From contig NZ_LXTQ01000001.1 in the NCBI RefSeq assembly GCF_001645185.1, positions 372,001 through 436,000 of the forward strand: a stretch of 64,000 nt of DNA, in the 5' to 3' direction. Each line of letters begins with the position of its first letter. Position 1 is the stretch's first letter. A program made the position numbers and the translations under genes. Below, in pieces: positions 51 through 14,780 of the stretch. The stretch comes from Methylobacillus sp. MM3 (GTDB lineage: Bacteria; Pseudomonadota; Gammaproteobacteria; Burkholderiales; Methylophilaceae). The notes under the pieces were generated by a model. It saw only the letters and a program-made list of their open reading frames with translations, did no database searches and had not been told where the DNA came from.

Positions 51-686
51 TTACTTCGCCTGGAAAGGATGAGCGTTCGTCGGATCCTTGTACATGCGCA
101 CGACATCGGCAGCCTTGGGCTCGCAAGCAACAGCGCTCTTGATCGCCTGCTTGGTCGCCTGGTAGTTCCAGTCCTGGATGCGCTCGTCGATGTCTGCCTT
201 ATGGTCGATAAACACGCCCACGCAGATGAACACATCGTCAGCCTCGTTCGCCGGGATCGTGCCGTCGGCGACGCAATCCATCACCGCCATCGATACGCCG
301 CGCTGTGCCGGACCGAACATCTGCACCGCCTGCTTGCCGTTCTTGATGGTGACCTTGTTGAACATCACCGTCGCCGGCTTCGCCATCAGGTTGGGAGCCA
401 CCACCGCCAACAGGCCATTAACACCTTCTCGCTGATTGGTCACGGTACGGGTAAATGCCCGCTCCGCTGCGCTACCACGAGGACCGATAATCAAATCAAT
501 GTGGGCGACATTCAGTAAATCCAGCCCGCTGCCGTCAGGACGGCTGTCAATGACAAGAGCCTCGCCCACCAGTACGCGGTCAATGACGCGACCGCCAGAA
601 TTTTTTGCTACGGGAGTTGCGACGGGGGCTGGGGAAGCGTCTTTACCGCTACCGAACAATCCAAAAATTTTATCCAGAATAGACAT
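51..686 (-). CDS. fae2: Formaldehyde-activating enzyme paralog with N-terminal extension
   Basis: This is a 211-residue homolog of Fae, which condenses formaldehyde with tetrahydromethanopterin (H4MPT) to methylene-H4MPT. The core from about residue 35 carries NVAHIDL with the catalytic-type histidine, then GPRGSAAE and [10 protein letters not shown]. It matches the adjacent fae almost residue for residue. Unlike that copy it begins with about 34 extra residues: a short amphipathic segment ([12 protein letters not shown]) followed by an Ala/Pro/Val-rich linker. The ATG at 686 is preceded by AGGGG, so the extension is probably translated. The nucleotide sequence is also very similar to the upstream copy, which points to tandem duplication or gene conversion. 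Fae chemistry is expected. The role of the extension (localisation, partner binding or oligomer control) is unknown. Confidence 0.9.
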
Positions 687-766: not shown

Positions 767-1306
767 TTAGTTCTTTGCTGCGAACGGGTGAGCGGATTGC
801 TTGTACTGCGCTACCACGTCCTTGGCCTTGGGCTCGCGAGCGACAGCGCTCTTGATCGCCTGCTTGGTCGCCTGGTAGTTCCATTCCTGGATGCGCTCGT
901 CGATGTCCGCCTTGTGGTCGATGAACACGCCCACGCAGATGAACACGTCGTCCGCTTCTTCCAGCGGGATCGTGCCGTCGGCGACGCAATCCATCACCGC
1001 CATCGATACGCCGCGCTGCGCCGGGCCGAACATCTGCACCGCCTGCTTGCCGTTCTTGATGGTGACCTTGTTGAACATCACGGTCGCCGGCTTCGCCATC
1101 AGATTGGGAGCCACCACGGCCAACAGGCCGTTGACGCCTTGCTTCTGGTCGGTCAGGGTGCGGCAGAAAGCTTCTTCCGCCGCGGAACCACGCGGACCCA
1201 TGATGAGGTCGATGTGGGCGACGTTCAGCAGATCCAGCCCGCTGCCGTCAGGACGGTTGTCAATGACGAGGGCTTCGCCTACCAGAACGCGATCGATTAC
1301 TGCCAT
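767..1306 (-). CDS. fae: Formaldehyde-activating enzyme
   Basis: This is a 179-residue Fae, the cytoplasmic enzyme that joins formaldehyde to H4MPT at the entry of the dissimilatory C1 pathway. Visible hallmarks are VAHIDL with His31, [24 protein letters not shown] and [15 protein letters not shown]. The ATG at 1306 was chosen because AAGGAG sits six to seven bases upstream. An in-frame start further upstream at 1357 would add residues unlike the family. Between VGEALV and VAHIDL there are about nine more residues than in the Methylobacterium Fae I remember, and the paralog has the same insertion. It is followed by a hairpin and then by the extended paralog. The pathway partners mtdB, mch and fhc are in this window. 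Confidence 0.95.
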
Positions 1307-1421
1307 TCTTTTCTCCTTATTCAAATCGGAAACGATATTGGGGCGGATACGTGCCAAATTAAATACATTGCTACAAATTCAAATAAATGGCACAAGACTG
1401 AGTGCCCCGCACATCAGTCAA

Positions 1422-1524: not shown

Positions 1525-2097
1525 TTAGCCCAATACGTCCGTCCGAACACTCTCGCAGAATTTTTCCAACTCTTCGATCAGCGGATGCGGCATGTTCTGA
1601 CCGCGGAGAACAGCACCAAGATTTTCTGATACTGCGTCGAAATGAGATGCGCCAAGACCCAGCGTTGCCAAGTGGGTACGCGCCTTGCGCATATCCATCC
1701 CCTCAAAGGCAGATCCTCCAAGCGCAGCAGAAATAAAGGCAATCTGCATCTTGATTTGGGTTTCCATCTCAGCCGCCGTATCAAAATCGAAATATTTCCT
1801 GATGCGCGGGTCAACCAGGGCCTTGCCGTAAAATCCCCGAACAATCGAGGAAACAGCAGCATCACCGCCAATGCGACTGAACAGGCTGGCGTTCCTGACA
1901 AAAGCATCGGTTTTTATACTGCCCAGACGACTCACATTTACGCGGCCGGAATAAGGGCTCGCAGTAGATGCCCCGCTAGCCAGGCTCAACCGGCTGACAT
2001 TAGCCCGGTCTGAATAACTGCTGGTTTTTGATTCGGTCTTTGCGAGACTTAACCGGCTCACATTATCTTTGTTTGCAAATGCAATCACCTTGTCCAT
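1525..2097 (-). CDS. Group 1 truncated haemoglobin with repeat-bearing N-terminus
   Basis: The 190-residue product has a truncated globin domain from about residue 71. It starts LFSRIGG, has FY at 89-90 (the usual B9-B10 pair, Tyr B10 contacting ligand) and THLATLGL around His142, the expected proximal haem ligand, followed by SHFDAV. Family members bind O2 or NO. The first 70 residues are unusual: NVSRLSLA appears at 12 and 33 and a decayed copy at 54, giving a 21-residue period in a Ser/Ala/Thr-rich, probably disordered stretch. The ATG at 2097 has AGGAGG six bases upstream; a start at 2154 would lack such a site. It sits between the hexuloisomerase and fae genes on the same strand. Why a globin belongs there is not known. 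Confidence 0.85.
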   Translation of the reverse strand: MDKVIAFANKDNVSRLSLAKTESKTSSYSDRANVSRLSLASGASTASPYSGRVNVSRLGSIKTDAFVRNASLFSRIGGDAAVSSIVRGFYGKALVDPRIRKYFDFDTAAEMETQIKMQIAFISAALGGSAFEGMDMRKARTHLATLGLGASHFDAVSENLGAVLRGQNMPHPLIEELEKFCESVRTDVLG

Positions 2098-2342
2098 GCT
2101 CCGCCTCCTATATAAAAAAACTTCAGGATTTTCCAAACAAAACCACTCCCGCATGTATTACAGGTTCAACAAGCGGCGTCACTAGGTTTAAAGGAACTTC
2201 CGAGGCGCAATTATCATGCGCACTATTTGATTCATACTCATCCAGTCAACCATTTCACGACTGGTCAGGATTAATAATATACACAAAGAGGTCGACAAGC
2301 AAAGCCAAGCATTCATTAAGCTTTAAACCAGCCTTATTAAAA
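2098..2342. other. AT-rich intergenic stretch before the globin gene
   Basis: About 245 bases between the globin start and the hexuloisomerase terminator contain no convincing gene. It is AT-rich compared with the coding regions and must hold the globin promoter. I could not pick confident -35/-10 boxes. Confidence 0.5.
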
Positions 2343-2379
2343 CAAAAAGGGCCTAGTCCTTAATCTGAACCAGGCCCTT
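2343..2379 (-). terminator. Terminator after hexuloisomerase
   Basis: An 8-bp stem (2347-2354 with 2372-2379) with a 17-base loop is followed on the minus strand by a T-rich tract. It separates hxlB from the globin and fae genes, which therefore need their own promoter. Confidence 0.75.
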
Positions 2380-3071: not shown

Positions 3072-3716
3072 TTAAGCAGCGGAACGTGCCAGACCAGTGA
3101 TCTCAGCAGCAGCAGCAGCCGGATCAGCAGCGCCGTAGATGGCAGCGCCAGCAACCACGATGCTAGCACCTGCCTTGACAACTTGCTGAACGGTTGCGGG
3201 CTTGATGCCGCCAGCGACGGAAACCTTCACGTTCAGGCCGAGGCTGGCAACCAGACCCAGGTCGACGAACGGAGTTTGACCAGCAGCTTGTTGATCCAGA
3301 CCGGTATGCACGCCGATGATGTGAGCGCCCAGAGCAGCCACTTCCTTGGTGCGTTGGCCCTTGTCAGCAACGTTAATCAGGTCAACTTGAGCTTCCTTGC
3401 CGTATGCGTTGGCAACATCGATCACACCCTTGATGGTACCGATGTCTGCAGTGCCAAGAACGGTGCAGATGTCTGCGCCGGCCTTGTAGAACGGCTCAGC
3501 TTCGTAGTAACCAGCGTCCATGGTCTTCAGATCGACCAGGATCTTGTTGTTCGGGAACTTGGCGCGCAGCGTCTTCAGCAGGTTGATGCCGTTGTGCTTG
3601 ATACAGGGAGTGCCGATTTCCAGGATGTCAACGTGCGGAGCAACTTTCTCTGCCAGCGCTACGGTTTGATCGAAATCCAGGGAATCCAGTGCCATTTGAA
3701 CTAATGGTTGTGCCAT
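3072..3716 (-). CDS. hxlA: 3-hexulose-6-phosphate synthase, copy 1
   Basis: This is a 214-residue TIM-barrel aldolase that joins formaldehyde to ribulose-5-phosphate, the fixation step of the RuMP cycle. It belongs to the orotidine-phosphate-decarboxylase/KGPDC superfamily. The hallmark DLKTMDAG is at about residues 62-69 and is followed by VLGTADIGTIKG, GVHTGLDQQ and VSVAGGIKP. The C-terminus is unusually Ala-rich. It lies 70 bases downstream of a second, closely similar hps. The ATG at 3716 has a GAGGATAAC-type site upstream. Two HPS paralogs could differ in expression or kinetics, or raise dosage against formaldehyde. Confidence 0.95.
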   Translation of the reverse strand: MAQPLVQMALDSLDFDQTVALAEKVAPHVDILEIGTPCIKHNGINLLKTLRAKFPNNKILVDLKTMDAGYYEAEPFYKAGADICTVLGTADIGTIKGVIDVANAYGKEAQVDLINVADKGQRTKEVAALGAHIIGVHTGLDQQAAGQTPFVDLGLVASLGLNVKVSVAGGIKPATVQQVVKAGASIVVAGAAIYGAADPAAAAAEITGLARSAA

Positions 3717-3786
3717 GATGTTATCCTCTAATTGATAAGGTTATGATTGTGTTGCAGGTTGATGAATAAATTACAAATCCCTGGGC

Positions 3787-4431
3787 TTAAGCAGCTGCGT
3801 CGACCAACTCGCGAATCTCGCGGGAAGCCAACTCTGCTGCGGGGGAACCGGTGATCGCACCTCCGATCACAACGATATCCGGACCAGCCTTGACGACTTG
3901 CTGCACCGTAGCTTGCTTGATACCGCCAGCCACGGAAACCTTGACGTTCAGACCCAAGGCGACCAGCGCCGCCAGATCGGCAAACGGGGTCTGGCCAGCC
4001 AGTTGCTGGTCGATTCCGGTATGGATGCCGATAATGTGCGCGCCCAGCTTTGCAGCTTCGGTTGCACGGGTTGCCTTGTCCTCAACGTTGATCAGGTCGA
4101 CCTGCGCCTGTTTGCCATAAGCATTGGCCACGTCGACCACTCCCTTGATGGTACCGAGATCAGCAGTGCCCAGAACGGTCGTGATATCGGCACCAGCCTT
4201 GAAGAATGGTTCCGCTTCGTAGTAACCGGCATCCATCGTTTTCAGATCGACAAACAACAGCTTGTCCGGATGTGCCGCCTTGATGGCCTTCACCAGCGCG
4301 AGACCGTTGACCTTGAGGCAAGGCGTACCGATTTCGATAATGTCGACATAAGGAGCAGCCTGACGGGCAAGCGCCAGCGTTTGTTCATAATCCAATGAAT
4401 CCAATGCGACCTGAATTAATGGTTTTGCCAT
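3787..4431 (-). CDS. hxlA2: 3-hexulose-6-phosphate synthase, copy 2
   Basis: This is a second full-length 214-residue HPS, colinear with the downstream copy without gaps over almost its whole length. It has the same DLKTMDAGYYEAEPF and AGGIKQATVQQ segments but many conservative changes, so it is an older duplicate than the fae pair. It has the same role as copy 1: formaldehyde plus ribulose-5-phosphate to hexulose-6-phosphate. It lies downstream of tal with a strong hairpin in between, and a GGAGG-type ribosome site precedes the ATG at 4431. Confidence 0.95.
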   Translation of the reverse strand: MAKPLIQVALDSLDYEQTLALARQAAPYVDIIEIGTPCLKVNGLALVKAIKAAHPDKLLFVDLKTMDAGYYEAEPFFKAGADITTVLGTADLGTIKGVVDVANAYGKQAQVDLINVEDKATRATEAAKLGAHIIGIHTGIDQQLAGQTPFADLAALVALGLNVKVSVAGGIKQATVQQVVKAGPDIVVIGGAITGSPAAELASREIRELVDAAA

Positions 4432-13103: not shown

Positions 13104-14780
13104 ATGCTGATCAAACTGAGCGGCGGCACCATTTACGATCCGGCGCACGGCATCGATGGCAAAGCCATGGACATTTTCGTCCGTGACGGCCGCATTGTCG
13201 AAAAACCGCGCGACGGCGAACGCATCGACCAGGAATACAATCTCGCAGGCAAAGTCGTCATGGCCGGCGCCATCGACATGCATACCCATATCGGTGGCGG
13301 TAAAGTCAACATCGCCCGCACGATGTTGCCGGAAGATCATCGCCACGACCCGGCAGCGCATAGCGATTTGTGCCGTGCGGGCTGCGGCCATGCCGTGCCT
13401 TCCACGCTCACCGCGGGTTATCGTTACGCCGAAATGGGCTACACCGCAGGTTTCGAACCTGCCGTGCTGCCAATGAACGCACGCCAGGCGCACCTTGAAA
13501 TGGGCGATACGCCCATGATCGACAAGGGTGGCTACGCGATGCTGGGCAGCGACGATTTATTCCTGCGCATGCTTGCCGCCAAGCAAGACCAGAACGCAAT
13601 CAACGATTACGTCGCGTGGACCATTGCCGCAAGCCAGGGCATCGGTATCAAGGTGGTAAATGCCGGCGGCATCAACGCATTCAAATTCAACCAGCGCTTC
13701 CTTGATCTGGATGAACAAAACTCGTATTACGGCATAACGCCACGCGAAGTACTGAAAACGCTGGCGCGTGCCGTGCATGAGCTTGGCGTACCCCATCCGC
13801 TGCATGTACACGGCAATAATCTCGGCGTACCGGGCAACGTGGAAACCACGCTGAACTCGATGGCGGGTGTCGAAGGTTATCCGATGCACCTCACACACAT
13901 CCAGTTCCATAGCTACGGTACGGAAGGCGATCGCAAGTTTTCCTCGGGTGCCGCACGTATTGCCGAAGCGATCAACAAGCAAAAGAACATCTCAGCGGAC
14001 GTCGGCCAGATTCTGTTCGGCCAGACCGTGACCGCCTCCGGCGACCAGATGTCGCAATTCCGCAATGCCGGTGCTGGCAGCCCGCACAAGTCGGTATGCA
14101 TGGATATCGAATGCGATGCCGGTTGCGGCGTAGTACCGTTCAAGTACAAGGATCAGAATTTCGTCAATGCGCTGCAGTGGGCGATCGGTCTGGAAATTTT
14201 CCTGCTGGTGGACGATCCATGGCGCATTTTCCTGACTACCGACCACCCCAACGGCGCGCCCTTCACCAGTTATCCGCACCTGATCAAACTGCTGATGGAC
14301 AAGACCTTCCGTAACGACATGTTCGCCAGCCTGAACCTGGATGCTCAGAAAATGAGCACACTGGCGTCCATCGACCGCGAATATTCGCTCTACGAAATCG
14401 CGATCATGACCCGCGCCGGTGCTGCCAAGCTGGTCGGTCTGCATGACCGTGGGCATCTGGGCGTGGGCGCAGCAGCCGACATCACGGTGTATACCGATAT
14501 CGCTGACCGCGAAAAAATGTTCGAGAAGCCGGATTACGTATTCAAGGACGGCCAATTGATCGTCAAGGACGGCAATATCGTCCGCGTAGTCTGGGGGGCG
14601 ACGCATACCGTCAAGCCCGAGTTCGACCGCGGCATCGAAAAGGAAATCAAGCAGTACTTCGACAAGTATCTCACGATAAAAATGGATCATATGAAGGTAA
14701 GCAACGACGAGATCGAAGGCGACGGTCGCGGCAAGGTCATCGTGCAGGAATGCAAGGGTCGCCGGGAGAAGACGGCATGA
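13104..14780 (+). CDS. fhcA: Formyltransferase/hydrolase complex subunit A
   Basis: A 558-residue amidohydrolase-fold subunit carrying the formyl-methylofuran hydrolase site that releases formate. The metal-binding HxH occurs in GAIDMHTHIGGGK (about residues 55-67), and other ligands lie in PHPLHVHGNN and LTHIQFHSYGTEGDRKFSSGA. A conserved late segment reads FLTTDHPNGAPFTSYP. Length fits the bacterial FhcA/archaeal FwdA family. It starts 18 bases after fhcB with AAGGAAA upstream and overlaps fhcD by four bases. Confidence 0.95.
   Translation: MLIKLSGGTIYDPAHGIDGKAMDIFVRDGRIVEKPRDGERIDQEYNLAGKVVMAGAIDMHTHIGGGKVNIARTMLPEDHRHDPAAHSDLCRAGCGHAVPSTLTAGYRYAEMGYTAGFEPAVLPMNARQAHLEMGDTPMIDKGGYAMLGSDDLFLRMLAAKQDQNAINDYVAWTIAASQGIGIKVVNAGGINAFKFNQRFLDLDEQNSYYGITPREVLKTLARAVHELGVPHPLHVHGNNLGVPGNVETTLNSMAGVEGYPMHLTHIQFHSYGTEGDRKFSSGAARIAEAINKQKNISADVGQILFGQTVTASGDQMSQFRNAGAGSPHKSVCMDIECDAGCGVVPFKYKDQNFVNALQWAIGLEIFLLVDDPWRIFLTTDHPNGAPFTSYPHLIKLLMDKTFRNDMFASLNLDAQKMSTLASIDREYSLYEIAIMTRAGAAKLVGLHDRGHLGVGAAADITVYTDIADREKMFEKPDYVFKDGQLIVKDGNIVRVVWGATHTVKPEFDRGIEKEIKQYFDKYLTIKMDHMKVSNDEIEGDGRGKVIVQECKGRREKTA

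Follow-up and report, generated by a model that had tools for sequence, protein, structure and literature searches.

A fae-adjacent protein of predicted truncated-globin fold with a repeat-motif tail and without the haem-ligating histidine in methylotrophs

The window, by which we mean the whole stretch of 64,000 nt of DNA that was analyzed, contains a gene for a 190-residue protein in which an N-terminal tail of repeated motifs precedes a domain of predicted truncated-globin fold, followed directly by fae and then by a second fae gene, faeL (Table 1). The extent of the gene agrees with that given in the first-pass annotation, which had left the strand unsaid; the gene lies on the minus strand. 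Upstream of it, genes for SIS/PHI, HPS and TAL are found in the window genome, in its sister species and in a second genus. GGAG-type sites occur at corresponding positions of all seven genes (that of the window and six orthologs), ahead of the ATG that precedes the motifs, and all seven frames are open. Because every ortholog has its ribosome-binding site in front of an ATG that includes the repeats, we read the tail as translated and as part of the protein; a start of translation after the repeats, which the first-pass annotation had named as counting against its reading, is not supported.

Table 1. Features of the repeat-tailed globin locus, with positions in the window and the evidence for each
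Feature	Position	Strand	Evidence
faeL, the second fae gene, whose product carries a 33-residue N-terminal extension	51..686	(-)	Pfam Fae, distribution
fae, adjacent downstream gene, proposed partner	767..1303	(-)	Pfam Fae E=1.3e-63
Gene for repeat-tailed protein of predicted globin fold, 190 aa	1525..2097	(-)	ORF and translation, Pfam Bac_globin, orthologs
Predicted truncated-globin domain, residues 71-186	1540..1887	(-)	Pfam Bac_globin E=2.9e-7; PDB sequence matches to cyanoglobin; Foldseek matches to TrHb1 structures
Codon of residue 140 (Arg) at globin F8, the haem-ligating His in ordinary TrHb1	1678..1680	(-)	Alignment
Codon of residue 117 (Met) at globin E10, Lys or His in ordinary TrHb1	1747..1749	(-)	Alignment
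Motif copy 3, NVSRLGSI, residues 54-61	1915..1938	(-)	Sequence, self-alignment; N54, R57 and L58 unchanged across six orthologs
Motif copy 2, NVSRLSLA, residues 33-40	1978..2001	(-)	Sequence, self-alignment; helix 29-38 in low-confidence tail model
Motif copy 1, NVSRLSLA, residues 12-19	2041..2064	(-)	Sequence, self-alignment; short helix 10-18 in low-confidence tail model
Shine-Dalgarno AGGAGG, 6 nt ahead of the ATG at 2097	2104..2109	(-)	Sequence
Terminator-like hairpin separating the SIS/PHI gene from the globin gene	2347..2379	(-)	13 pairs plus T-run; similar one in the same place in L035

Residues 1-64 of the protein contain three units of 21 residues, with motif starts at 12, 33 and 54 in an exact 21-residue period. 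The self-alignment of the tail scores 85 at an offset of 21, a score reached by none of 5000 shuffles (mean 20, maximum 48), which confirms the three N-terminal repeats, with NVSRLSLA at the first two starts, that had been noted at first pass. Across copies the motif follows a consensus of roughly Y-x-x-R-x-N-[VAL]-S-R-L-S, and the third copy proved not to be "worn", as it had been described: its core, Y-x-x-R-x-N-x-S-R-L, is preserved in close orthologs, the difference being confined to its end, where the linker to the globin domain begins. The units are identical at just 30-37 of 63 nt in pairwise DNA comparison, from which we conclude that the duplication of the unit is, on the sequence evidence, old and maintained at the protein level, not a product of recent slippage. 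Between the window protein and its closest ortholog, that of the sister species, dN is 0.10 in the NxSRL cores, a value resting on a small count of three differences, and 0.25 in the spacers, with synonymous sites near saturation; the lower core value at near-saturated synonymous sites points to selection on the motif. In the models of both the window protein and the Novimethylophilus protein the tail is of low confidence, with short helices over motifs 1 and 2 in the former and over motifs 1 and 3 in the latter, and we regard it as a disordered region whose motifs form helices, although these helices are modelled with low confidence.

The protein is present in 7 of the 187 family genomes searched. 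These belong to four genera within a single family of methylotrophs, probably Methylophilaceae, and comprise the window genome, that of its sister species (76% identity), three genomes from the second genus, one from a third genus, and Novimethylophilus kurashikiensis La2-4. Every one of the seven orthologs retains the tail, the motif counts being 3, 3, 3, 2, 2, 3 and 1, and the single motif (in L037) is diverged. Close orthologs retain the repeats beside fae, the reverse of the pattern, repeats absent while the cluster is conserved, that the first-pass annotation had named as counting against its reading. Most fae-bearing genomes of the family are without a repeat-tailed globin, and we therefore call it accessory. 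A species-wide scan with strict patterns, which may miss distant relatives, returned five loci, all matching genomes already found. When a profile of the tail was searched against the other proteins of the seven genomes, the globin alone was found (other matches E>0.05), and against the family plus 369 genomes of the class it found no other convincing protein, the weak matches there having E of 1e-4 to 1e-1; four of these that were inspected (L124, L131, L133, L138) hold at most one NxSRL-like word each. The phages searched contained no repeat-tailed globin and the plasmids searched contained ordinary TrHb1 alone, of which the one in Methylocystis heyeri is not near fae within the 8 kb examined.

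In a phylogenetic tree the seven proteins cluster together with moderate, uneven support (84/0) and on long branches. Such branches, together with the patchy presence among the family genomes, would be expected of a decaying globin pseudogene or a neutral passenger whose repeats are functionless left-overs of slippage. We consider this explanation very improbable, since each of the seven frames is open and has its ribosome site, amino-acid change has stayed low although synonymous sites are close to saturation, the motif is conserved across genera although the DNA of the units has diverged, and the neighbour gene is kept.

Bac_globin is the sole domain match of the protein, in which we found no DNA-binding, STAS or kinase domain; searches of NCBIfam gave no meaningful family match and searches of Rfam no match. 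Its nearest solved relatives by sequence are group 1 truncated globins of cyanobacteria, algae and ciliates. The globin domain is modelled fairly in the window protein (mostly 70-85 per ten-residue block, lowest 62) and much better in the Novimethylophilus protein (pLDDT mostly >90), and both AlphaFold models match TrHb1 structures in Foldseek, the best PDB matches lying at 2.2-2.8 Å rmsd with TM 0.79-0.83 over the target. Sequence and models together predict a truncated-globin (2-on-2) fold of group 1 type. The protein thus resembles TrHb1 of the GlbN/HbN type in its predicted fold, its nearest sequence and structure relatives, its GG motif and its TyrB10, GlnE11 and PheE14, and differs from it in a repeat tail of up to about 65 residues, in a gene adjacent to fae and, across the orthologs, in having neither HisF8 nor a basic E10.

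This last difference was examined in an alignment of the seven orthologs with 34 ordinary TrHb1 (33 from related genomes, plus cyanoglobin 2ksc). The proximal F8 position is His in 34 of 34 ordinary TrHb1 and in none of the seven, which have R, R, Y, Y, Y, V and T; E10 is Lys or His in all 34, against M, S, Q, Q, N, S and Q in the seven. There is no alignment column in which all seven share a His. HisF8 has been described as a strictly conserved residue and the typical hallmark of truncated globins, and a basic E10 as a residue that supports haem binding (PMC4720485). The alignment shows that the haem-ligand residue is lost in all seven, and haem itself has probably been lost from this globin-fold protein. 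The name "truncated haemoglobin" given at first pass consequently holds for the group 1-type globin fold and fails for the haem ligand, and "haemoglobin" should not be used for the protein unless a spectrum bears it out. Without its haem ligand the protein is a poorer fit for the accompanying suggestion of O2 or NO sensing, and with HisF8 and the basic E10 gone in all seven and no His conserved, such sensing appears unlikely.

The distal side of the pocket has fared differently. TyrB10 and GlnE11 are kept in six of the seven proteins and PheE14 in at least six, which indicates continued selection on the core or the distal pocket, and a pocket with its distal residues so kept may still be holding something. 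Gln E7 is kept in four, among them the window protein, which also carries Tyr B10 and Gln E11. These retained distal residues could also mean that haem is still bound through another ligand, either Tyr or Arg at F8 or His142, making an unusual O2, NO or peroxide protein. His142 lies two residues after F8 in the window protein, L003 and L007, and could in principle shift into place. Tyr at F8, as in L004-L006, could hold ferric haem, as it can in the HisF8Tyr variants known as haemoglobin M. We nonetheless regard continued haem binding as quite unlikely, since no single candidate ligand is conserved, with F8 varying among R, Y, V and T, and since the basic E10 that supports haem (PMC4720485) is lost in all seven. 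Elsewhere in the window genome there is a second, distant globin (L002), which keeps an AH motif at the F8 place.

The first-pass placement of the globin in a formaldehyde cluster is borne out by fae, which adjoins it downstream, and on the same strand, in each of the six genomes that could be read at this point, the contig ending in the seventh. The stretches read in L036 and L037 (Novimethylophilus among them) yielded no HPS, PHI or TAL, which makes fae the constant neighbour. No terminator was seen between the globin gene and fae in L036 or L037, nor on the forward strand in L035, and the two genes are likely to form one unit. Weaker hairpins with T-rich stretches do lie between globin and fae, at about 1390-1412 (-) in the window and at 13202-13231 (-) in L032; they occur in both species of the window's genus and are possibly an attenuator before fae. 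Comparison of Fae from globin-bearing genomes with other Fae gave no clear residue change specific to the former, with one weak position, V164. In the readable globin-bearing genomes except L037, fae is followed by faeL, which we rejected as an obligate partner because it is also present in G049 and G174-G176, genomes in which we found no repeat globin. The extension of the faeL product opens with an amphipathic helix-like stretch followed by a linker, and may tether Fae to a membrane or a partner.

Fae is oligomeric, and because its gene directly follows that of the globin we propose it as the docking partner of the tail. The explanation to which we give tentative preference, and which we hold to be plausible though somewhat short of probable, is a haem-less truncated-globin fold with a multivalent tail that docks to an oligomeric enzyme from the formaldehyde unit, with Fae the most likely one. 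Under this proposal, a truncated-globin fold that has lost its haem-ligating residues, and probably no longer carries haem, has gained a disordered tail with one to three copies of the motif (three in the window protein), each of which likely forms a short helix once bound. The first-pass idea that the repeats recruit the globin to an enzyme is plausible in this light. As a multivalent docking element, the tail would then tie the globin domain to the enzyme, and the globin domain would act as a spacer, dimeriser or non-haem sensor, clustering or regulating it. Fae accelerates the reaction in which formaldehyde condenses with H4MPT (PMC8879981). A narrower form of the idea, in which the haem-less globin is either a scaffold that gathers Fae, and perhaps the faeL product, into an assembly for capturing formaldehyde where it is released, or a formaldehyde sensor with an emptied pocket, seems to us unlikely.

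We infer docking, the choice of Fae and the clustering or regulation by analogy with the linkers of carboxysomes and pyrenoids, in which short motifs in disordered tails bind Rubisco and are repeated in CsoS2 and EPYC1 (PMC10614612). Like the N-terminal repeats of CsoS2, EPYC1 and the N-terminal peptide of CsoSCA, the protein described here appears to have a disordered short-motif tail, and its putative tie to an enzyme is suggested by the synteny with fae. The trait typical of CsoS2 and EPYC1, a disordered region with repeated conserved short motifs, is found here in a tail that both models give at low confidence. Unlike those linkers, it has one to three motifs and a globin domain that follows the tail, and no sequence relation to them is shown.

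The same features can be read as those of a haem-less globin sensor, in which the pocket or Cys181 would sense formaldehyde, redox state or a small molecule and the tail would signal to fae expression or Fae activity. TyrB10, GlnE11 and PheE14 have stayed although the haem ligand was lost, six orthologs share an invariant C181, and conserved cysteines are used by several formaldehyde sensors (PMC8879981). A precedent exists in the globin domain of the stressosome protein RsbR, a haem-less globin fold that works through protein contacts as a sensory turret (PMC6614362). The protein here is like RsbR in its predicted globin fold and in the probable absence of haem, and differs in having no STAS domain (Bac_globin alone was found), in its derivation from TrHb1, in its gene context and in its repeat tail. 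The absence of DNA-binding, STAS and kinase domains speaks against a signalling role, and a Cys at the place of residue 181 is also seen in some ordinary TrHb1 and is missing from L037. We therefore view the sensor as possible, if fairly unlikely, and give preference to docking on Fae.

The repeat-tailed protein is a genuine and conserved feature that known families do not explain; haem-less globins as such are already known. Our literature search returned no paper joining Fae and truncated haemoglobin. Formaldehyde is a toxic branch point of methylotrophy, and to our knowledge there is no known scaffold for Fae, so that if the tail does dock to Fae, the protein would be the first spatial organiser of the formaldehyde-capture step and could be used in engineered methylotrophs. 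The protein also offers a clear example from nature of a truncated globin minus its haem ligand that retains the fold, much of the distal pocket and the gene neighbourhood, which makes the role of globins without haem testable. It carries a warning for annotation too, in that Pfam reports a bacterial globin despite the missing ligand.

The fae gene of the window and a further copy at G000:C20:53287-53817 (L123) are identical at 531 of 537 nt, with similarity ending at the ends of the coding sequence, and by this comparison the pair is the product of recent duplication or gene conversion. Two HPS-like genes stand in tandem at 3072-4431 (-) of the window; they are about 69% identical and are kept in the sister genomes.
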